NCBI GenBank assembly: GCA_020342235.1
Contig: CP073218.1
Location: 744,001-808,000 of the forward strand
Reading direction: 5' to 3'
Source: Saccharomycopsis phalli
Lineage: Eukaryota > Ascomycota > Saccharomycetes > Ascoideales > Saccharomycopsidaceae
DNA length: 64,000 bases
The notes below the pieces were generated by a model, which saw only the letters and a list, made by a program, of their open reading frames with translations, searched no databases and was not told the DNA's origin. Every line of letters starts with the position of its first letter. The first letter of the stretch is position 1. This document shows positions 29,071-41,453 of the stretch, in pieces. The translations under genes were made by a program, and so were the position numbers.

Positions 29071-29144
29071 TATTAAATACCATGTTAAAATTGGCGTTGT
29101 ATCTTGCAAAACTGGTGCCGGCAAATGAAAATGGCAAAAAAATG

Positions 29145-29168
29145 TGCGAGCTCTGTGTATCGATCACA

Positions 29169-29201
<33 letters not shown>

Positions 29202-29217
29202 TCTGAGCTAAGCCCGC
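29145..29217 (-). tRNA. tRNA-Phe (GAA)
   Basis: 73-nt tRNA on the minus strand. Acceptor GCGGGCT/AGCTCGC (one G-T pair) with discriminator A, D-arm GCTCAGATGGGAGAGC, anticodon stem TCAGA/TCTGA with loop CTGAAGA (anticodon GAA), T-arm CTGTGATCGATACACAG. No intron, unlike S. cerevisiae tRNA-Phe. A run of seven T follows immediately (plus-strand 29137-29143). LTR elements start 14 bp upstream of its 5' end. Confidence 0.97.
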
Positions 29218-29226
29218 TCCTTGAAA

Positions 29227-29231
29227 ACTTT
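29227..29231. repeat. Target-site duplication, left, copy 1
   Basis: ACTTT, repeated at 34801-34805 after the 3' LTR of copy 1. Confidence 0.9.
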
Positions 29232-29671
29232 TGTAACGGGCAATCCCCGGTACCTCTCCTCTGGAGTATAGAAGGTACACGTGAATGGCACGTGAAGGCA
29301 TACAACATGCTAGGATCAACATGAAGAACAACATTCCCTCTGAACATGGTCTAGGCCTTGCGAAGTTACGTCTTCAAGTTACGTACAGCAAGGGTCAGAC
29401 ATGCTCTTTCCTATTAAGGCTAAAAGAAGGTCTAGACCGTCCTGAAAAGGATTCTTACGTCTCCACCAGACGCAAGTCGATGGAACACCTCTACCATATA
29501 GAATAATATAAATAGCGGGGAAACCTGCTATAAGCTGAACGAACTTTGGGAGAAATCCCATCTTAGCTTATTATAACAAACATTATTGTAAGCTTCTTCT
29601 ATCCCCTCGGAATAGTACCTTTATTGAGGTAATACTGAATATCCTGACGATTTGGGATATTGACTATTACA
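29232..29671 (+). repeat. 5' LTR of copy 1
   Basis: 440 bp, TGTAACGGGC...ACTATTACA ends. A TATAAATAG box lies near 29507-29517. Appears identical to 34361-34800. Confidence 0.95.
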
Positions 29672-29673
29672 GT

Positions 29674-29683
29674 TGGTAGCGCC
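29674..29683 (+). other. Primer-binding site, initiator tRNA-Met, copy 1
   Basis: TGGTAGCGCC, two bases after the 5' LTR, complementary to the 3' end of yeast initiator tRNA-Met as in Ty1 and Ty3. Confidence 0.88.
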
Positions 29684-29699
29684 ACAAGGTTCATCAAGG

Positions 29700-30479
29700 A
29701 TGTCTGACGAAACAAGCGACGTGTCCTCCAGACGGAAGGAATTCATCTGGAATGGTATTCCACCATTGGCCGAAGGAGACCCACCGGCGGTGGTGTCACA
29801 ATTCATCTGGAAAGCCAGGAGAACATTTGGTGAGTTAGACGATAGTGTTGAAGATCGTTTACTGTACATCGGTGCCCGAATGGAAGGAACTGCTGCGCTT
29901 TGGCATCATAATCAAGCACGGCTCTGTGAGGAAGACGACTCCATTGAACCGTATCTAAAGGCGTTGGAAGATAGGTTCTTACCAAGAAATTACCAATGGA
30001 TGATCCGCCAACGCGTATTCTTTTGCAAAATGGGCAACAATTCCCTACAAAAGTATATTCAAGACTATGGACAAAATATCAGTGAAATGCCCAAAGGTTA
30101 CCTCCCGCTACAGACTAGCATCGACCTCTTTGTCTGCGGTCTCCCTCACAAATACAGGGAAGACATAATTAACCAGGAGCCTCAAACTTGGTTGGAAGCA
30201 GCGCACATCGCCGAAAAGATGAATATTCGTCCTAAGGAAGCTTTTAAACCAAAGGAACGTCCTGCCGCTAACAACAAACGAAAACGGGATGAACCTGAAA
30301 ACGATAAATCTTCGTTAAAATGCACCTTTTGTCACAAAATAGGTCATTTGGCGTCTAGTTGTTTCAACCGGTTGAAAAGGGTAAAAGTGAACAATTTACA
30401 AGTTGAGTCGCTGAATGAATCAGAGACTAATACTGAGAACGATGATGAAAAGGAGTTGCTCAGTTCAAAAAACTTCTAG
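29700..30479 (+). CDS. gag of copy 1
   Basis: 259-residue Gag of the Ty3-type element, open throughout. The central region (KYIQDYGQNISEMPKGYLP) corresponds to the capsid. One zinc knuckle (CTFCHKIGHLASSC) sits near the C-terminus. A -1 slippery heptamer A AAA AAC overlaps the last codons. Confidence 0.9.
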   Translation: MSDETSDVSSRRKEFIWNGIPPLAEGDPPAVVSQFIWKARRTFGELDDSVEDRLLYIGARMEGTAALWHHNQARLCEEDDSIEPYLKALEDRFLPRNYQWMIRQRVFFCKMGNNSLQKYIQDYGQNISEMPKGYLPLQTSIDLFVCGLPHKYREDIINQEPQTWLEAAHIAEKMNIRPKEAFKPKERPAANNKRKRDEPENDKSSLKCTFCHKIGHLASSCFNRLKRVKVNNLQVESLNESETNTENDDEKELLSSKNF

Positions 30480-33400
30480 GGTCTGTCTCCATCCGAGGTC
30501 AGTTGCCAGACCCTACTTGCTTTAGCCAAAGTAAAGAGCCCGGGAGTAAACCATTAGTCATTATTAGTTTGGACATCCAAGGTCGGACTATCAAGGCTTT
30601 GGTGGACCCAGGGGCCGCTTTATCTTGCTTGAATATACAAATTTGTCAATCATTACATCTTCCTGTTAAAAAGGCTGAGCGGCCAATCTCTGTTCAGGAC
30701 GTAGCCTTAAGACACATTGAAGATATAGACTCATGGACTCAAGCAGAATTTACATTTGGCGACCTTCCGGATAAACCTAACCACAATCTTAAGTTTTATA
30801 TCATGAAAAATTGTCCCCATGATTGTATCTTAGGTTTGCCTTTTATTTGGGATCATTACGATCTTTTCAAGAATATTATGGACCAGGAATTGTTGAGAAA
30901 TCAGCCCCGGACTATGAACGCTATACAGCGGAATCAAGGAGAAGCGCCCATTCAAATCATCACAGCAGCGAAGGCCGCTAGAATGATGAAAACAGCGGAC
31001 AATGAGTTTTATACCATACTTATTAAACCCAATCCGTTGTGGGACGTGAACCCTAAGAGTGTTCCTAACGGGACTAACCATGATGAATTATTGGAACTGT
31101 GTAATACAGAACCCTTGTCAAAGACCTGTCATACAGGGATATCACCCACAGTGATGGGGGCCGTTCAGGCTCAAGAAATTGAAAACAAGCACTCACATGC
31201 TGCCATGAATCAGACGGAAACGTCACAATTTAATATAAGTTTATCGACGCAGAAATGTCTCGATAACGAGTACTCCCCAATGACGACCTAACGGCAATCG
31301 TTGGAGATGTTACTGATGGTCTGTTGCCCACCATTAAGAGGAACACGAATTCCAGTACAAAAATGGCTGTGAATATCAATCTGGTTCTGACTGCTTCCAC
31401 AGGGGATTCTAGGGTGAAAGCTCTTCTCCTGGAGTTTAGCGATGTAATCAGTAATGAATTGCCGATTGGAGGCACTTCTTTCAGGAAGGTAATGCATCAT
31501 ATTCATATCCTCCCCGGACGTCAACCTAGTTATCAGAACTACTACAGATTAAGTCCGGACAATCGAGCAGAATTGAAGAGTCAAATTGAAGAACTTATTC
31601 GGAGCAATCGAATTTTTCCCACGTCGTCCCCCTACGGAGCGCCGGTTTTATTTGTTAAGAAAAAGGACGGAAGCAAAAGACTTTGTGTGGATTACAGACG
31701 GTTAAATGAAATTACAGAAAAATCTCGGTTCCCCCTCCCACGTATTGAAGACTTGTTGGACCTCATACATGGAGCTAAGATATTTTTTAAGTTGGACTTG
31801 GTTAGCGGGTATCATCAAATCTTAATAACTCCAGATGATAAACACAAAACTGCTATGGTGACGCCGTTCGGACAATATGGCTGGAACGTCATGCCATTTG
31901 GGCTTTGCAATGCACCAGCGACGTTCCAGGCCGTCATGAATAAGCTCCTACTTCCGCTTGAAAAGTTTTGTGTGGTCTATATTGATGATGTGCTCATATT
32001 CTCGCCAGACGAAGCGTCCCACAAACGACACATACGCACGGTATTAGAAACCTTTCGGCAAGCTCGATTGATTGTCAGCCTGAAGAAATCACAGTTCTAC
32101 CTCAAAAGTATGGACTTTCTTGGGTATAAAGTGTCGGATAAGGGCATTCATGTCACGGACTCGCAAATAGAGTCAGTGAAACGATATCTAGTCAAAACAC
32201 CAGCTCAAGTGAGATCGTTTGTTGGACTTGCAAGTTATTATCGCCGGTTCATTCGGGGATTTGCCGAAATTGTGCGACCCCTACATTTGTTTGCGAACGA
32301 TAAAGTTCAGTGGTCTAACGACCAAGAGACGGCGGTAGAAACTCTTAAGGAGGCATTAACAACAGCTCCTACGTTGATTGTTTTCGACCCGGCACTAACG
32401 TGTCGAGTCACAGCCGATGCATCAAACTTCACGGCTGGAGCAGTACTTGAACAATTTGATAATGATGGAACCACAAAAGGAGTGGTTGCCTACATGTCTA
32501 AACAACTTCAAAATGCCCAACTCCGGTATCCGGTACGGGAAAAGGAATTACTAGCTATAGTTTTAGCTTTGAGACAGTGGAAACACTATTTATCGGCTCC
32601 GTTTGAGATTTTCACGGACCATCACTCTTTGAAATATTTAAACTCGTCGAAAAGCGAGGATAACCCGCGGTTGATCAGGTGGCTTCAGTACCTTGCTAAT
32701 TTCAATTACACGATCCACTACAAGGCGGGTCATTTGAATGGAGCTGCCGACGCGTTAAGTCGCTGTGTACTCAGCGCGATAGTAACTTCTAACGAAGGAT
32801 CCGGAGGCTCTTTGCAATACACAGAGGTGACCAAGCACCCTGGTACTCAACCTATTGAAAAAGAAGAGTATCTTGCAGACCCCAATTTTAAATTAATCTA
32901 TCAAGTTTTATTTCAACTGGCACCGTGTCCGAAAGAACACAAAGCTCTATTGAACTTTTACCTGGCCAGAAAATTAAATGGCAACGACGTGTTGGTTTTC
33001 CGCACGTCTCTGTTGGATCACTCCAAGGTATGTCTACCCAGAGGTAGGTGGCAGACCAAGATGATACACATGTACCACAACGCTGCTGGTAGTCTTCACA
33101 TGGGTCCTCATAAGATGGTACGGCAAATCCAGTCGCTGGGTTTTTACTGGCCCGGAATGGAGCGTTCTATACGCAAACACCTACTTAGATGTGAAACATG
33201 CCGAACCATCAAGCCCTCCAATCAAGCAACTAATGGGCTTGCTCAACCGCTAGAAGTCCCTATTGCTAGGTGGGCAGATCTCTCTATGGATTTCATCTCA
33301 GGGTTTCCTGAAGATGAAGGCTACGATTGTATATTGGTCGTGGTCGACCGTCTTACAAAGCGGGCGAAATTCATTCCATGCAAGAAAACGTGTACAGCAG

Positions 33401-34326
33401 AACAGTTTGGTGAATTATTTTTCAGGCACATTGTGTGTGAACATGGAGTACCTAGGTCGATAATATCGGACCGAGGAATATTATTTGTGAACAACTTCTG
33501 GAAGACAGTTACAGAAAGAATGGGAATTGATCATCGACTATCCACCAGTGCGCATCCCCAAACCGATGGCCAAACGGAAAGAATGAATCGCAACTTGATA
33601 CAGGCGCTTAGAGTGTGCAAGAAGGTACAGGGAAACCTGTGGTGCCGAATGTTACCAGTGGCACAGTTCGCGTACAACAGCCAGTATCAAGAATCTATTA
33701 AAACATCTCCTTTCTTTGCAGATCTAGGCTATCACCCAAGATACTGGGAGATAGTGGTAGGTTACGATATACCTAGACTTTTCAATGACAAAAAGATTGT
33801 GGCTGGCAATGCGTTCGTGGAAGCACAGGATAAAAATATGGAATGGCTTAAACTGAACATGGCTGAAGCTCAGATTAGACAGAGTTATCAGACGAACAAG
33901 CATCGAACCGATGTGACCTTCAAAGACGGAGAATTAGCTTTACTACAAAGAAAGGCTCTTTCAACGTCCTCAGAACGAGAAAAGAAATTTGAAGCCCCAT
34001 TTACTGGGCCGTTCCGTGTGACTCCTACCGACAACCCAAACAGCTACGTTGTGCAGGTAGGTCCCAGAAAGAAATTAACAATCAATGTGAAAAATTTAAG
34101 GAAGTATTACTCAACGGAACTTGCGGAAACTGGTAGTTGGTATGAGGAAAACATAGAACTGATTGTGTTAATTCTCGAAATCAGCGATCACCATGCGGTG
34201 GTACTCTACAGGGACAAACCTACCCCAGTCACGATTCCCGCGCGTTGGATTGCGAAAATTTCAGACAAGCTTATGAATCATCTACTCCAAGACCTTGAAG
34301 AATTCGAACCCTTACGGGATTGGTAG
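30473..34326 (+). pseudogene. pol region of copy 1 (PR-RT-RH-IN)
   Basis: Pol of a Ty3/gypsy element. Protease (LVDPGAALSCLN form of the active-site motif), RT with YIDDVLIF, RNase H, integrase with HHCC-type zinc region and a DDE core, and an IN C-terminal region with FTGPFRV. It looks broken about once. Otherwise nearly the same protein sequence as the pol of copy 2. Confidence 0.9.
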
Positions 34327-34360
34327 GTCAAGGGACGACCTACGCTTCAGGGGGGGAAAC

Positions 34361-34800
34361 TGTAACGGGCAATCCCCGGTACCTCTCCTCTGGAGTATAG
34401 AAGGTACACGTGAATGGCACGTGAAGGCATACAACATGCTAGGATCAACATGAAGAACAACATTCCCTCTGAACATGGTCTAGGCCTTGCGAAGTTACGT
34501 CTTCAAGTTACGTACAGCAAGGGTCAGACATGCTCTTTCCTATTAAGGCTAAAAGAAGGTCTAGACCGTCCTGAAAAGGATTCTTACGTCTCCACCAGAC
34601 GCAAGTCGATGGAACACCTCTACCATATAGAATAATATAAATAGCGGGGAAACCTGCTATAAGCTGAACGAACTTTGGGAGAAATCCCATCTTAGCTTAT
34701 TATAACAAACATTATTGTAAGCTTCTTCTATCCCCTCGGAATAGTACCTTTATTGAGGTAATACTGAATATCCTGACGATTTGGGATATTGACTATTACA
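34361..34800 (+). repeat. 3' LTR of copy 1
   Basis: 440 bp, preceded by a G-rich polypurine tract. Followed by the target duplication ACTTT. Confidence 0.95.
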
Positions 34801-34804
34801 ACTT

Positions 34805-35187
34805 TGTAACGATAAAATCCTGGTGGTATCGTTACAATCACTTATAAACTGGCTAATTAACAATATGAAGTATTGTTAACTACAAGATATAAGTTGTAAA
34901 GTTATCTCAGAATATATCTCTAAGTTACTTGATGATTTATTAGCTATTTCCTTCTGTATTTATATTATTCCAGAGACAGGGTTACTTCCTTAATTAAGGG
35001 TTGCCTCAAATCCCCTTTTGGGATTCTTCCATATTCATCTCTGTACACGGCAGTGCTTTGACTTCCTTTCTCGTCACCATAGGCATCATCCCTTATCCGC
35101 ACGTTGACATGTGATGTTCACGTGTCATCCCATGTGACCAACACGTGTATCCCACGTGTCTAGTGTAAACGATATTTTATCGTTACA
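34805..35187 (+). repeat. Solo LTR, family B, copy B1
   Basis: 383 bp from TGTAACGATAAAATCC to ATTTTATCGTTACA, with no internal region. The flanks AACTT (29226-29230, before copy 1 split the site, and 35188-35192) form its target duplication. Copy 1 inserted at its first base. Its partner B2 follows. Confidence 0.88.
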
Positions 35188-35191
35188 AACT

Positions 35192-35865
35192 TGTATGTAA
35201 CCAGGAAGGTACACTTCCCTGGTTAGGAGAAATGATACAGCGGTTAGAGACCCTGGTTGTATACGTGCACGTGATGGGAGGAAGCCCGGGTTATATGTGC
35301 ACGTGAGAGGAATGAAGCCCTGGTAAGGGGTGAGTATAAATATACAAACGGTGGCGTGAAGGAGGTCACGCAAGGTTACGGTCATAATAATGTAAGCTTT
35401 CATATACGTGAATAAGGAATCACGGACGCCTTATTCAGCATAACCAGCATTCTCCGAAGTAGATCGGATCTAACTGGTTACATTGTAACGATAAAATCCT
35501 GGTGGTATCGTTACAATCACTTATAAACTGGCTAATTAACAATATGAAGTATTGTTAACTACAAGATATAAGTTGTAAAGTTATCTCAGAATATATCTCT
35601 AAGTTACTTGATGATTTATTAGCTATTTCCTTCTGTATTTATATTACTCCAGAGACAGGGTTACTTCCTTAATTAAGGGTTGCCTCAAATCCCTTTTGGG
35701 ATTCTTCCTGACTCGTCCTTCCATTCAACAGTGTTTTGATTTCCCTTCTCGTCACTATCGGCATCATCCCTTATCCGCACGCTGACATGTGATGTTCACG
35801 TGTCATCCCATGTGACCAACACGTGTATCCCACGTGTCTAGTGTAAACGATATTTTATCATTACA
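35192..35865 (+). repeat. Solo LTR, family B, copy B2, split by family C
   Basis: First four bases TGTA at 35192-35195, then family-C LTR 35196-35483, then the rest to 35865. Flanked by AAACT (35187-35191 and 35866-35870). Close to B1 but with scattered differences, most between 35700 and 35765. Confidence 0.85.
35196..35483 (+). repeat. Solo LTR, family C, inserted in B2
   Basis: 288 bp, TGTAACCAGG...CTGGTTACA, with target duplication TTGTA (35191-35195 and 35484-35488). Contains GAGTATAAATATA. Third LTR family in the stack. Confidence 0.87.
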
Positions 35866-35866
35866 A

Positions 35867-35871
35867 AACTT
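35867..35871. repeat. Target-site duplication, left, copy 2
   Basis: AACTT, repeated at 41449-41453. Confidence 0.88.
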
Positions 35872-36312
35872 TGTAACGGGCAATCCTCGGTACCTCTTCT
35901 CTGGAGTATAGAAGTTACACGTGAATGGCACGTGAATGCATACAACATGCAATGAACAACAGGAAGAGGACCGGGCTTGTGGGTGAACAAGGTATAACCC
36001 TTGTGAAGATACGTCTTTAGGTCACGTACATCAAGATACCGGTATACTCTTTCCTATTAAGGATAAAGAAGGTCTAGGCCGTCCTAAAAGGGATTCTGAC
36101 GCCTTTACCAGACGCAAGTCAATGGCACACCGCCACCATATAGAATAATATAAATAGCTGGGAAACCTGCTATGAAGCTAACTAACTTTGGGAGAAATTC
36201 CATCTTAGCTTATTATAACAAACATTATTGTAAGCTCCTTCTATCCCCTCGGAATAGTATTTTATTGAGGTAATACTAAATATCCTGACCATTTAGGATA
36301 TTGACTATTACA
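35872..36312 (+). repeat. 5' LTR of copy 2
   Basis: 441 bp, TGTAACGGGC...ATTACA. It differs from the copy-1 LTR considerably more than the two internal regions differ from each other. Confidence 0.93.
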
Positions 36313-36314
36313 GT

Positions 36315-36324
36315 TGGTAGCGCC
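36315..36324 (+). other. Primer-binding site, copy 2
   Basis: TGGTAGCGCC, as in copy 1. Confidence 0.87.
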
Positions 36325-36340
36325 ACAAGGTTCATCAAGG

Positions 36341-37121
36341 ATGTCTGACGAAACAAGCGAAGTGTCTTCCAGACGGAAGGAATTCATCTGGAATGGTATT
36401 CCACCATTGGCCGAAGGAGACCCACCAGCGGTGGTGTCACATTTCATCTGGAAAGCCAGAAAAAACATTTGGTGAATTAGACGATAGCGTCGAAGATCGT
36501 TTACTGTACATCGGTGCCCGAATGGAAGGAACTGCTGCGCTTTGGCATCATAATCAAGCACGGCTCTGTGAGAAAGATGACTCCATTGAATCTTACCTAA
36601 AGGCGTTGGAGGACAGGTTCTTACCAAGAAATTACCAATGGACGATCCGCCAACGCGTATTCTTTTGCAAAATGGGCAACAATTCCCTACAAAAGTATAT
36701 TCAAGACTATGGACAAAATATCAGCGAAATGCCCAAAGGTTACCTCCCGCTACAGACTAGCATCGACCTCTTTGTCTGCGGTCTCCCTCACAAATACAGG
36801 GAAGACATCAAAAACCAGGATCCTCAAACTTGGTTGGAAGCAGCTCGCATAGCCGAAAAGATGAATATTCGTCCTAAGGAAGCCTTTAACCCAAAGGAAC
36901 GTCCTGCCTCTAACAACAAACGAAGACGGTACGAACCTGAAGACGATAAATCCTCGTTAAAATGCACCTTTTGTCACAAAATAGGTCATTTGGCGTCTAG
37001 TTGTTTTAACCGGTTGAAAAGGGTAAAAGTGAACAATTTACAAGTTGAGTCGCTGAAGGAATCAGAGACTAACACTGAGAACGTTGATGAAAAGGAGTTG
37101 CTCAGTTCAAAAAACTTCTAG
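36341..37121 (+). pseudogene. gag region of copy 2
   Basis: Same Gag family as copy 1, ending with zinc knuckle and slippery heptamer. It looks broken about once. Confidence 0.88.
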
Positions 37122-40100
37122 GGTCTGTCTCCATCCGAGGTCAGTTGCCAGACCCTACTCGTTTTAGCCAATGTGAAGAGCCCGGAAGTAAGCCATTAGT
37201 CATTATTAGTTTGGACATCCAAGGTCGGACTATCAAGGCTTTGGTGGACCCAGGGGCCGCTTTATCTTGCTTGAATATACAAATTTGTCAATCATTACAT
37301 CTTCCTGTCAAAAAGGCTGAGCGGCCAATCTCTGTTCAGGACGTAGCCTTAAGACACATTGAAGATATAGACTCATGGACTCAAGCAGAATTTACATTTG
37401 GCGACCTTCCGGATAAACCTAACCACAATCTTAAGTTTTATATCATGAAAAATTGTCCCCATGATTGTATCTTAGGTTTGCCTTTTATTTGGGATCATTA
37501 CGATCTTTTCAAGAATATTATGGACCAGGAATTGTTGAGAAATCAGCCCCGGACTATGAACGCTATACAGCGGAATCAAGGAGAAGCGCCCATTCAAATC
37601 ATCACAGCAGCGAAGGCCGTTAGAATGATGAAAACAGCGGACAATGAGTTTTACACCATACTTATTAAACCCAATCCGTTGTGGGACGTGAAACCTGAGA
37701 ATGTTCCTAACGGGACTAACTCTGTTAAATTATTGGAACTGTGTAATACAGACCCCTTGACAAAAACCTGTCATACATGGATATCACCCACAGTGATGGG
37801 GGCCGTTCAGGCTCAAGAAATTGAAAACAAGCACTCACGTGCTGCCCTGAATCAGACGGAAACGTCAAACCTTAATATAAGTTCATCGACGCAGAAATGT
37901 CTCGATAACGAGTACTCTTCCAACGACAACCTAACGGCAATCGTTGGAGATGTTATTGATGGTCTGTTACCCACCATTAAGAGGAACACGAATTCCAGTT
38001 CAAACATGGCTGTGAATATCAATCTGGTTCTGACTGCTTCCATAGGAGACCCTAGGGTGAAAGTCCTTCTCCTGGAGTTTAGCGATGTGATCAGTAATGA
38101 ATTACCGATTGGAGGTACTTCTTTCAAGAAGGTGATGCATCATATCCATATCCTCCCCGGACGTCAACCTAGTTATCAGAATTACTACAGGTTAAGTCCG
38201 GACAATCGAGCTGAATTGAAGAACCAAATTGAGGAACTTATTCGGAGCAATCGAATTTTCCCCACGTCGTCTCCCTACGGAGCGCCGGTTTTATTTGTTA
38301 AGAAAAAAGACGGAAGCAAAAGACTCTGTGTGGATTATAGACGGTTAAATGAAATTACAGAAAAATCTCGGTTCCCCCTCCCACGTATCGAAGACTTGTT
38401 GGACCTCATACATGGAGCTAAGATATTCTCTAAATTGGATTTGGTCAGCGGGTATCATCAAATTTTGATAACTCCAGAAGACAAACACAAGACGGCTATG
38501 GTGACTCCGTTTGGACAATACGGGTGGAACGTCATGCCATTTGGGCTTTGCAACGCGCCAGCGACGTTCCAAGCCGTCATGAATAAGCTCCTCCTTCCGC
38601 TTGAAAAGTTTTGCGTGGTCTATATTGATGATGTGCTCATATTCTCCCCAGACGAAGCGTCCCACAAACAACACATCCGCACGGTATTGGAAACCTTTCG
38701 GCAAGCTAGATTAATTGTTAGCTCGAAGAAATCACAATTCTACCTCAAAAGTATGGATTTTCTTGGGTACCAAGTGTCGGATAAGGGCATCCATGTTACG
38801 GACTCGCAAATAGAGGCAGTGAAACGATACCTAGTCAAAACACCAGCTCAAGTGAGATCGTTCGTTGGACTTGCAAGTTATTATCGCCGTTTCATTCGGG
38901 GATTTGCCGAAATTGTGCGACCGCTACATTTGTTTGCGAATGATAAAGTTCAGTGGTCTAACGACCAAGAGACGGCGGTAGAAACTCTTAAGGAGGCATT
39001 AACAACCGCTCCTACGTTGATTGTTTTCGACCCAGCACTAACGTGTCGAGTCACAGCCGATGCATCAAACTTCACGGCTGGAGCAGTACTTGAACAATTT
39101 GATAATGATGGAACCACAAAAGGAGTGGTTGCCTACATGTCTAAACAACTTCAAAATGCCCAACTCCGGTATCCGGTACGGGAAAAAGAATTACTAGCTA
39201 TAGTTTTAGCTTTGAGACAGTGGAAACACTATTTATCGGCTCCGTTTGAGATTTTCACGGACCATCACTCTTTGAAATATTTAAACTCGTCGAAAAGCGA
39301 GGATAATCCGCGTTTGATCAGGTGGCTTCAGTACCTTGCTAATTTCAATTATACGATTCACTACAAGTCGGGTCATTTGAATGGAGCTGCCGACGCGTTA
39401 AGTCGCTGTGTACTCAGTGCGATAGTAACTTCTAACGAAGGAACCGGAGGCTCTTTGCAATACACAGAGGTGACAAAACACCCTGGTACTCAACCTATTG
39501 AAAAAGAAGAGTACCTTGCAGACCCCAATTTTAAATTAATCTATCAAGTTTTATTTCAACTGGCACCGTGTCCGAAAGAACACAAAGCTTTATTGAACTT
39601 TTATCTGGCCAGAAAATTAAATGGCAACGACGTGTTGGTTTTCCGCACGTCTCTGTTGGATCACTCCAAGGTATGTCTACCCAGAGGCAGGTGGCAGACC
39701 AAGATGATACACATGTACCACAACGCTGCTGGTAGTCTACACATGGGTCCTCATAAGATGGTACGGCAAATCCAGTCGCTGGGCTTTTACTGGCCCGGAA
39801 TGGAGCGTTCTATACGCAAACACCTACTTAGATGCGAAACATGCCGAACCATCAAACCCTCCAACCAAGCAACTAATGGGCTTGCTCAACCGCTAGAAGT
39901 CCCTATTGCTAGGTGGGCAGATCTCTCTATGGATTTCATCTCAGGGTTCCCAGAGGATGAAGGATACGATTGTATATTGGTCGTGGTCGACCGTCTTACA
40001 AAGCGGGCGAAATTCATTCCATGCAAGAAAACGTGTACAGCAGAACAGTTTGGTGAATTATTTTTCAGACACATTGTGTGTGAACATGGAGTACCTAGGG

Positions 40101-40972
40101 CGATAATATCGGACCGAGGAATATTATTTGTGAACAACTTTTGGAAGACAGTTACAGAAAGAATGGGAATTGATCATCGACTATCCACCAGTGCACATCC
40201 CCAAACCGATGGCCAAACGGAAAGAATGAATCGCAACTTGATACAGGCACTTAGGGTGTGTAAGAAGGTACAGGGAAACCTGTGGTGCCGAATGTTACCA
40301 GTGGCACAGTTCGCGTACAACAGCCAGTATCAAGAATCTATTAAAACATCTCCTTTCTTTGCAGATTTAGGCTATCATCCAAGATACTGGGAGATAGTGG
40401 TAGGATACGATATACCTAGACTTTTCAATGACAAAAAGATTGTGGCTGGCAATGCGTTTGTGGAAGCACAGGATAAAAATATGGAATGGCTTAAACTGAA
40501 CATGGCTGAAGCTCAGATTAGACAGAGTTATCAGACGAACAAGCATCGAACCGATGTGACCTTCAAAGACGGAGAATTAGCTTTACTACAAAGAAAGGCT
40601 CTTTCAACGTCCTCAGAACGAGAAAAGAAATTTGAAGCCCCATTTACTGGGCCGTTCCGTGTGACTCCTACCGACAACCCAAACAGCTACGTTGTGCAGG
40701 TAGGTCCCAGAAAGAAATTAACAGTCAATGTGAAAAAAAATTTAAGGAAGTATTACTCAACGGAACTTGCGGAAACTGGTAGTTGGTATGAGGAAAACAT
40801 AGAACTGATTGTGTTAATTCTCGAAATCAGTGATCACCATGCGGTAGTACTCTATAGGGACAAACCTGTCCCAGTCACGATTCCCGCACGTTGGATCGCG
40901 AAAATTTCAGACAAACTTATGAATCATCTACTCCAAGACCTTGAAGAATTCGAACCCTTACGGGATTGGTAG
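37115..40972 (+). CDS. pol of copy 2 (PR-RT-RH-IN)
   Basis: Long uninterrupted pol frame of about 1285 codons, -1 relative to gag and reached through the heptamer at 37109-37115. Protease, RT (YIDDVLIF), RNase H, HHCC and DDE integrase, and the FTGPFRV region are all present. Its C-terminal segment (PARWIAKISDKLMNHLLQDL) might be a chromodomain-like targeting tail. Confidence 0.92.
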   Translation, partial: LLGSVSIRGQLPDPTRFSQCEEPGSKPLVIISLDIQGRTIKALVDPGAALSCLNIQICQSLHLPVKKAERPISVQDVALRHIEDIDSWTQAEFTFGDLPDKPNHNLKFYIMKNCPHDCILGLPFIWDHYDLFKNIMDQELLRNQPRTMNAIQRNQGEAPIQIITAAKAVRMMKTADNEFYTILIKPNPLWDVKPENVPNGTNSVKLLELCNTDPLTKTCHTWISPTVMGAVQAQEIENKHSRAALNQTETSNLNISSSTQKCLDNEYSSNDNLTAIVGDVIDGLLPTIKRNTNSSSNMAVNINLVLTASIGDPRVKVLLLEFSDVISNELPIGGTSFKKVMHHIHILPGRQPSYQNYYRLSPDNRAELKNQIEELIRSNRIFPTSSPYGAPVLFVKKKDGSKRLCVDYRRLNEITEKSRFPLPRIEDLLDLIHGAKIFSKLDLVSGYHQILITPEDKHKTAMVTPFGQYGWNVMPFGLCNAPATFQAVMNKLLLPLEKFCVVYIDDVLIFSPDEASHKQHIRTVLETFRQARLIVSSKKSQFYLKSMDFLGYQVSDKGIHVTDSQIEAVKRYLVKTPAQVRSFVGLASYYRRFIRGFAEIVRPLHLFANDKVQWSNDQETAVETLKEALTTAPTLIVFDPALTCRVTADASNFTAGAVLEQFDNDGTTKGVVAYMSKQLQNAQLRYPVREKELLAIVLALRQWKHYLSAPFEIFTDHHSLKYLNSSKSEDNPRLIRWLQYLANFNYTIHYKSGHLNGAADALSRCVLSAIVTSNEGTGGSLQYTEVTKHPGTQPIEKEEYLADPNFKLIYQVLFQLAPCPKEHKALLNFYLARKLNGNDVLVFRTSLLDHSKVCLPRGRWQTKMIHMYHNAAGSLHMGPHKMVRQIQSLGFYWPGMERSIRKHLLRCETCRTIKPSNQATNGLAQPLEVPIARWADLSMDFISGFPEDEGYDCILVVVDRLTKRAKFIPCKKTCTAEQFGELFFRHIVCEHGVPRAIISDRGILFVNNFWKTVTERMGIDHRLSTSAHPQTDGQTERMNRNLIQALRVCKKVQGNLWCRMLPVAQFAYNSQYQESIKTSPFFADLGYHPRYWEIVVGYDIPRLFNDKKIVAGNAFVEAQDKNMEWLKLNMAEAQIRQSYQTNKHRTDVTFKDGELALLQRKALSTSSEREKKFEAPFTGPFRVTPTDNPNSYVVQVGPRKKLTVNVKKNLRKYYSTELAETGSWYEENIELIVLILEISDHHAVVLYRDKPVPVTIPARWIAKISDKLMNHLLQDLEEFEPLRDW

Positions 40973-41006
40973 GTCAAGGGACGACCTACGCTTCAGGGGG
41001 GGAAAC

Positions 41007-41448
41007 TGTAACGGGCAATCCTCGGTACCTCTTCTCTGGAGTATAGAAGTTACACGTGAATGGCACGTGAATGCATACAACATGCAATGAACAACAGGAA
41101 GAGGACCGGGCTTGTGGGTGAACAAGGTATAACCCTTGTGAAGATACGTCTTTAGGTCACGTACATCAAGATACCGGTATACTCTTTCCTATTAAGGATA
41201 AAGAAGGTCTAGGCCGTCCTAAAAGGGATTCTGACGCCTTTACCAGACGCAAGTCAATGGCACACCGCCACCATATAGAATAATATAAATAGCTGGGAAA
41301 CCTGCTATGAAGCTAACTCACTCTGGGAGAAATTCCATCTTAGCTTATTATAACAAACATTATTGTAAGCTCCTTCTATCCCCTCGGAATAGTATTTTTA
41401 TTGAGGTAATACTAAATATCCTGACCATTTAGGATATTGACTATTACA
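41007..41448 (+). repeat. 3' LTR of copy 2
   Basis: 442 bp, preceded by a G-rich polypurine tract, followed by AACTT. Confidence 0.93.
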
Positions 41449-41453
41449 AACTT

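Follow-up and report, generated by a model that had tools for sequence, protein, structure and literature searches.

Upstream of a tRNA-Phe gene of Saccharomycopsis phalli we uncovered a pile of five LTR elements belonging to three families, which we read, with a probability of roughly 0.9, as the product of five independent integrase-made insertions at one and the same RNA polymerase III (Pol III) start site. The pile lies within a stretch of 64,000 nucleotides (contig CP073218.1, positions 744,001 to 808,000), hereafter the window. Its layers, proceeding outward from the 5′ end of the tRNA gene, are arranged head to tail in the order copy 1, B1, C, B2 and copy 2, and comprise two full-length elements (copies 1 and 2) and three solo LTRs (Table 1).

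Table 1. Features of the stack (positions in the window) and, in the last five lines, Pol III-box-bearing LTR edges and repeat copies elsewhere in the genome (contig:position)
Feature	Position	Strand	Details
tRNA-Phe(GAA) gene	29144..29217	-	anchor of the stack; mature 5′ end 29217; ARAGORN
Target duplication ACTTT	29227..29231	.	5 bp, tRNA side of copy 1; second copy 34801-34805
Copy 1	29232..34800	+	full-length Ty3/gypsy, subfamily A1; LTRs 29232-29671 and 34361-34800
Copy 1 gag frame	29664..30479	+	Ty3_capsid
Copy 1 pol	30449..34326	+	broken, two frames (30449-31291, 31267-34326)
B1	34805..35187	-	solo LTR, family B, 383 bp; duplication AACTT at 35188-35192
C	35196..35482	+	solo LTR, family C, 287 bp; duplication TTGTA at 35191-35195 and 35483-35487
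B2	35484..35865	-	whole solo LTR, family B, 382 bp; duplication AAACT at 35866-35870
Copy 2	35872..41448	+	full-length Ty3/gypsy, subfamily A2; duplication AACTT at 35867-35871 and 41449-41453
Copy 2 LTRs	35872-36312 and 41007-41448	+	
Copy 2 primer-binding site	36315..36332	+	TGGTAGCGCCACAAGGTT
Copy 2 gag frame	36321..37121	+	Ty3_capsid
Copy 2 pol frame	37091..40972	+	RT, RNase H, integrase; offset -1 from gag
LTR edge with B box	C2:96246		end of full-length A1 element
LTR edges with B box	near C5:281911 and C7:1229603		ends of C LTRs
Copy of ~330-bp repeat	C7:1229612-1229945		L066
Copy of ~330-bp repeat	C5:281923-282239		L069
Copies of ~330-bp repeat			L092-L096

The first line of evidence for serial insertion is that all five elements retain exact 5-bp target duplications, which from the tRNA gene outward read ACTTT, AACTT, TTGTA, AAACT and AACTT, i.e., four different words. 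The duplication of B2 becomes visible only after C is removed, and that of C is made up of one flanking base and the first four bases of B2. When all five elements are excised by script, a single empty site, TTGAAAACTTGG, is restored under every order of arrival compatible with the duplications; the duplicated words cover positions -8 to -16 relative to the mature 5′ end of the tRNA-Phe, and 14 bases separate copy 1 from the gene. Thus, the exact duplications and the one empty site bear out the proposal of an earlier note on this DNA that five LTR elements of three families are stacked here. Two of its details need amending: the note had the stack start at 29226, and the first duplication begins at 29227; it had placed C inside B2 with the duplication TTGTA, and that duplication is present but C stands before a whole 382-bp B2. 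The two LTRs of copy 1 show no differences over 440 bp, and its pol gene is interrupted by a frame change despite their identity; those of copy 2 differ by two mismatches and one gap column over 441 compared. B1 and B2 both run opposite to the family B coding direction, as judged from a full-length B element. The tRNA-Phe gene itself is called by ARAGORN without an intron; the tRNA-Phe of S. cerevisiae carries one. As for the host genome, its MCM4 and a Kar3-like kinesin have their best matches among yeast chains and CTG codons are rare; a search for a helicase gave no match at the cut-off used, and one against plasmids was likewise negative.

The families involved are closely related. Pfam searches show that the pol genes of copies 1 and 2 have the Ty3 domain order of RT, RNase H and integrase, and that the Ty3-type capsid (PF19259) scores above the cut-off in copy 1, copy 2 and the B and C elements; the zinc domain of the integrase is likewise above the cut-off, and its core domain, rve, is below it. 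Full-length B and C elements found elsewhere in the genome (L085 and L086, respectively) have the same domains in the same order as A. The best solved relative of the copy 2 pol in the PDB is Ty3, and the same holds for the pol proteins of the B and C elements. In pairwise comparison the RT pieces of the three families share 75–79% identity, so these are sister families; by their domains and sequence kinship, A (with subfamilies A1 and A2), B and C belong to Ty3/gypsy (Metaviridae). They also have in common the primer site TGGTAGCGCCACAAGGTT, which is complementary over 18 nucleotides to the 3′ end, with CCA added, of the tRNA-Met(CAT) encoded at C3:963307; going by the yeast initiator tRNA, we take this to be the initiator. 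The primer of Ty3 is initiator tRNA-Met. In A and C the pol frame is shifted by -1 from that of gag; in B both genes share one frame. We also considered whether the elements could be of the Ty1/copia type with Pol III targeting, wherein the integrase precedes the RT and the insertion window is broad; this was rejected, as the integrase follows the RNase H and the window is 7 bp wide. Two further observations concern these families. The tRNA-Met locus that matches the primer site (C3:962408-963380) itself bears two stacked A LTRs, the nearer of them at 13 bp. In a subfamily of C (the ends of L086, L066 and L069) the LTR terminus appears to be GGTTATA in place of GGTTACA, judging by the 5-bp duplications.

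The second line of evidence comes from the spacing of these LTRs to tRNA genes across the genome. LTR sites were collected by sequence similarity, independently of their proximity to tRNAs (for family A, 40 of 52 candidates were scored), and the counts are lower bounds. Loci were extracted around the 30, 30 and 23 best matches to the three families and around five further A sites, with weaker matches lying outside the count; ARAGORN, with introns allowed, was run on these loci and on the window, and BLAST against the same sequences recovered 110 LTR matches, fragments included. A tRNA 5′ end lies within 40 bp of 48 of these 110, in every case at a distance of 11–17 bp (A, 25; B, 18; C, 5), leaving the range of 18–40 bp empty among the 110, and at no match in these loci or the window (0/110) is a tRNA 3′ end found within that distance of 40 bp. 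This is the sharp peak that would be expected if there were a genome-wide bias toward tRNA genes, and the peak of A, B and C at 11–17 bp upholds the suggestion of repeated targeting of Pol III start sites by at least two LTR families; nearness to the Pol III start is here judged from the mature tRNA ends, 11–17 bp downstream. The adjacent tRNA genes are of many kinds, and the orientation of the LTRs relative to them is mixed (same versus opposite: A, 13 and 12; B, 4 and 14; C, 1 and 4). Among the other 62 matches are LTRs at the far ends of full-length elements, layers lying farther out in stacks, fragments and a small number of isolated LTRs. An exact 5-bp match between the flanks is seen in 30 of the 64 complete LTRs with both flanks present, a set that includes single LTRs of full-length elements, for which no such match is expected; among the 36 complete LTRs adjacent to a tRNA it is seen in 23 and absent in 13. 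Two tRNA genes placed head to head, for Gly and Leu, both have their 5′ ends 14 bp from one A2 solo LTR (L089; C1:1639937-1640405).

Three additional families, of which E and F are known from LTRs alone, help define how far this precision extends. Seven of the 27 matches to family E lie 14–17 bp from a tRNA 5′ end. Against an incomplete list of 113 known tRNA genes, none of the 27 matches to family D and none of the 42 matches to family F lie within 40 bp of a 5′ end. The LTR of family F (334 bp, beginning TGATGTAC; L048 2289-2622) is found on the 5′ side of tRNA genes in 13 of its 42 matches, at 147–1245 bp, and on the 3′ side in eight, with the other 21 having no known tRNA within 1.5 kb; it is thus found near tRNA genes over a broad range and on both sides, which is a looser association than that of A, B and C. 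Given that D and F have no close matches and that E displays the spacing of A, B and C, the precise aim is a property of A, B, C and E and not of repeats near tRNA genes in general. The family D LTR (293 bp; L071 1749-2041) is inserted in other LTRs at at least three places.

We propose that the Pol III initiation complex guides A, B and C elements to their sites, most probably via TFIIIB as in the case of Ty3, a tethering suggested by the parallel. Each insertion would duplicate 5 bp, and a flank of 12–16 bp including one of the duplicated words would stay on the tRNA side, so that each insertion restores the target and a later element could enter between the tRNA and its predecessor. Three of the five elements would then have been reduced to solo LTRs, presumably by recombination between LTRs. 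In this proposal the positions that the inner layers occupied at arrival are deduced along with the order. The duplications by themselves leave that order partly free: an exhaustive test showed that 31 of the 120 possible orders fit the exact duplications, because the LTRs have T as their first base and A as their last, and these terminal bases can complete a target word. Nevertheless, two steps are fixed by the words themselves. Since TTGTA contains the first four bases of B2, C must have come after B2 and on its tRNA side; and copy 1 must have arrived when some LTR was already present, as ACTTT needs the initial T of an LTR. Adding the rule that insertions fall at 11–17 bp leaves just one order, namely copy 2, B2, C, B1 and copy 1, with insertion edges at 14, 13, 17, 14 and 15 bp, respectively. 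We therefore favor the view that the nearest element is the youngest, this being the sole compatible order that keeps every insertion in the window of 11–17 bp, with the exact sequence of arrivals a deduction from that rule; C, too, reads as a targeted arrival. The earlier note had each arrival enter on the tRNA side, which the spacing favors and which the duplications alone do not establish (31/120 orders fit). Its statement that LTR divergence agrees with this order holds for copy 1, with no differences, against copy 2, and fails for B1, C and B2, whose branches run the opposite way. Terminal branches in LTR trees are 0.018 for B1, 0.007 for C and 0.003 for B2, and half of the difference between the LTRs of copy 2 gives an age proxy of about 0.002; hence, the layer nearer the tRNA has the shorter branch in one of the four neighboring pairs and the reverse is seen in three, mostly through B1, which looks like the oldest member of the stack by branch length. 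The closest relative of B1 differs from it by 2.1%, and an unsampled B source would explain its long branch, since the length of a terminal branch gives a maximum age.

These branch lengths lend some weight to a different history, in which B1 settled first by the tRNA, B2, C and copy 2 subsequently entered its distal duplication from the far side, and copy 1 came in on the near side. The order B1, B2, C, copy 2 and copy 1 is one of the 31 compatible ones and nearly matches the branches in the stack (0.018, 0.003 and 0.007 for the three solo LTRs in that order, and two LTR differences for copy 2). Nevertheless, we consider it unlikely, as it needs insertions at more than 380 bp from the tRNA when all 48 tRNA-adjacent matches sit at 11–17 bp, and as the other stacks point the other way: across nine stacks the nearer layer has the shorter terminal branch in 12 of 16 neighboring pairs, and in 11 of the 12 pairs outside the focal stack, in a comparison that skips layers without a usable tree tip and in which some pairs are not directly adjacent. 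Eight stacks, hand-picked and including the focal one, were also tested for order by their duplications. Nearest-is-youngest is compatible in five of the eight and is the sole compatible order in one, the stack at the tRNA-Thr at C1:765769, of whose four layers only the inner two were tested, the two outer ones having been omitted as they show no exact match; in the remaining three of the eight no order gives exact duplications throughout. The stack at the tRNA-Glu (C7:1100269-1102634) has at least five layers, one of which is divided by an F LTR.

A further alternative would be that the stack was assembled by recombination or gene conversion between LTRs and not by serial integration. Solo LTRs such as B1, C and B2 are the usual outcome of LTR recombination, and a B element elsewhere (C1:766230-771194), whose LTRs differ by 29 mismatches over 382 columns though each has a short terminal branch, suggests a possible exchange between LTRs. 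This proposal is largely refuted and we regard it as very improbable: every element of the stack keeps its exact 5-bp duplication, excision restores one plausible site, and recombination would not preserve a spacing of 11–17 bp at dozens of tRNA genes. The coding region of that B element is fragmented into short frames. Slightly less credible still is that insertion was random and that those insertions that happened to be near tRNA genes survived. A compact genome must indeed select against insertions in coding sequence, but selection would hardly yield a peak 7 bp wide with nothing at 18–40 bp, and families D (0/27) and F (0/42) have no match within 40 bp of a 5′ end in the incomplete tRNA list. 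Hence, serial insertion at the Pol III start remains our preferred reading of the stack.

The few LTRs isolated from tRNA genes led to a further set of potential targets. At eight hand-picked isolated placements a Pol III B box was sought within 160 bp of the outer edges, and was found with at most one mismatch at three of the 14 edges having enough flank, as against 44 of 2,000 random stretches. These are the three edges in Table 1, within 1.5 kb of which no tRNA was found. Each of the three LTRs is followed by a tRNA-like head, the A box of which begins 22–24 bp beyond the LTR end as scored; the corresponding distance at tRNA genes is 19–25 bp in 48 of 49 edges, most commonly 21, in a comparison where choosing the A-box match nearest the expected place favors agreement. 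The heads on C5 and C7 belong to one dispersed repeat of about 330 bp, with at least eight near-full copies among 47 matches (40 of 287 candidates scored) and with its 3′ part found at many more places. In the seven copies that were read the repeat ends in an ATT-rich tail, followed in one by a run of A, and is flanked by target duplications; by script these measure 9–17 bp in five copies (C5, C7, L092, L094 and L096), and visual inspection gave 10 and 12 bp in L093 and L095. A tRNA-like head with A and B boxes, an ATT-rich tail, target duplications and dispersal are together the marks of a tRNA-derived SINE; on these structural grounds the C5/C7 repeat can be classed as a putative SINE of this kind in a yeast-like genome. 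By the same token these SINE-like repeats are predicted to be transcribed by Pol III, with an internal run of five T that could end the transcript early. The repeat at C2 (L038 1941-2420; C2:96247 onward) represents a different SINE-like family with a tRNA-like head and, from a reading of the flanks, a 12-bp duplication; the A1 element just upstream of it is full-length with identical LTRs. An identity of the repeat at C2:96246 with RNase P RNA was considered and set aside, the one match to that family lying elsewhere, and a search of Rfam at the LTRs lacking a tRNA returned nothing at or above the gathering scores, with weak sub-threshold matches at C2. No tRNA-like head was seen at the isolated LTRs at C4:670287 and C3:1681523, which speaks against a universal rule; the B boxes at C1:692734 and C6:213297 are weak, with two mismatches, and C3:2048804 had too little flank for the test. 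Taken together, it is fairly probable that sister Ty3-type families re-use the Pol III starts of both tRNA genes and tRNA-derived SINEs as landing pads, with nested duplications recording the arrivals.

Through such stacks a tRNA gene becomes an archive of the times at which each retroelement family was active, and part of the order can be read from the overlapping duplications, i.e., from sequence alone. With A, B, C and E aiming precisely and D and F lacking such aim, the genome provides a ready-made comparison in which the responsible part of the integrase could be sought. Should the SINE-like repeats prove to be genuine Pol III genes, a mobile element would join tRNA genes, 5S genes and a tRNA relic among the known targets, and one class of retroelement would be landing on another. 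The wider pattern, comprising A, B, C and E, several stacks and the SINE-like targets, is more interesting than the focal stack, and its more novel part is the LTRs abutting SINE-like repeats at a tRNA-like spacing. Among the matches listed from the open-access literature there was no paper on SINEs in budding yeasts, and none in which stacks are interpreted as an order of arrival; a paper on Yarrowia draws a parallel only (PMC5014426).

The aim of Ty3-type elements at tRNA start sites is itself established, as the available passages of several papers attest (PMC5911963, PMC5014426, PMC4600332, PMC8632968). Ty3 of S. cerevisiae is described in such passages as inserting 1–4 bp upstream of the transcription start of tRNA genes, about 15 bp from the mature tRNA (PMC5911963, PMC5014426, PMC5006619), and also as targeting the tRNA relic ZOD1 (PMC5911963); as far as these passages go, it resembles A, B and C in capsid type, RT–RNase H–integrase order, 5-bp duplication and insertion distance. 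It differs in the +1 frameshift between gag and pol reported for it (PMC5911963), the offset being -1 in A and C and the two genes forming one frame in B. Tyl3, Tyl6 and Ylt1 of Yarrowia lipolytica are also Ty3/gypsy elements at tRNA start sites, and Tyl3 has, as here, an initiator tRNA-Met primer site and a 5-bp duplication; deep multi-family stacks such as ours are absent from the passages on these elements (PMC5014426, PMC5911963). The excerpted account of Tca8 and its beta LTR in Candida albicans gives a Ty3/gypsy LTR in a wider window, 6–30 bp upstream of tRNA genes, with partial elements remaining (PMC5911963). Tj1 of Schizosaccharomyces japonicus, another Ty3/gypsy element with a 5-bp duplication, directed 13 of its 17 new insertions to sites immediately 5′ of tRNA genes; according to the portion of the report used here it differs in being self-primed, in having a stop codon between gag and pol and in that its targeting was tested by experiment (PMC4600332). 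In dictyostelids, which as hosts are amoebae, DGLT-A lies about 15 bp upstream of tRNA genes, and a table footnote states that different elements can integrate at one tRNA gene (PMC5006619). Thus, re-use of a single tRNA site is already in print, at least in that footnote, which serves to explain unmeasurable distances and gives no order of arrival (PMC5006619). The focal stack is, accordingly, a new, rich and well-preserved example of the known Ty3-type targeting of Pol III, with the difference from Ty3 that in the genome of S. phalli three sister families use a common window.
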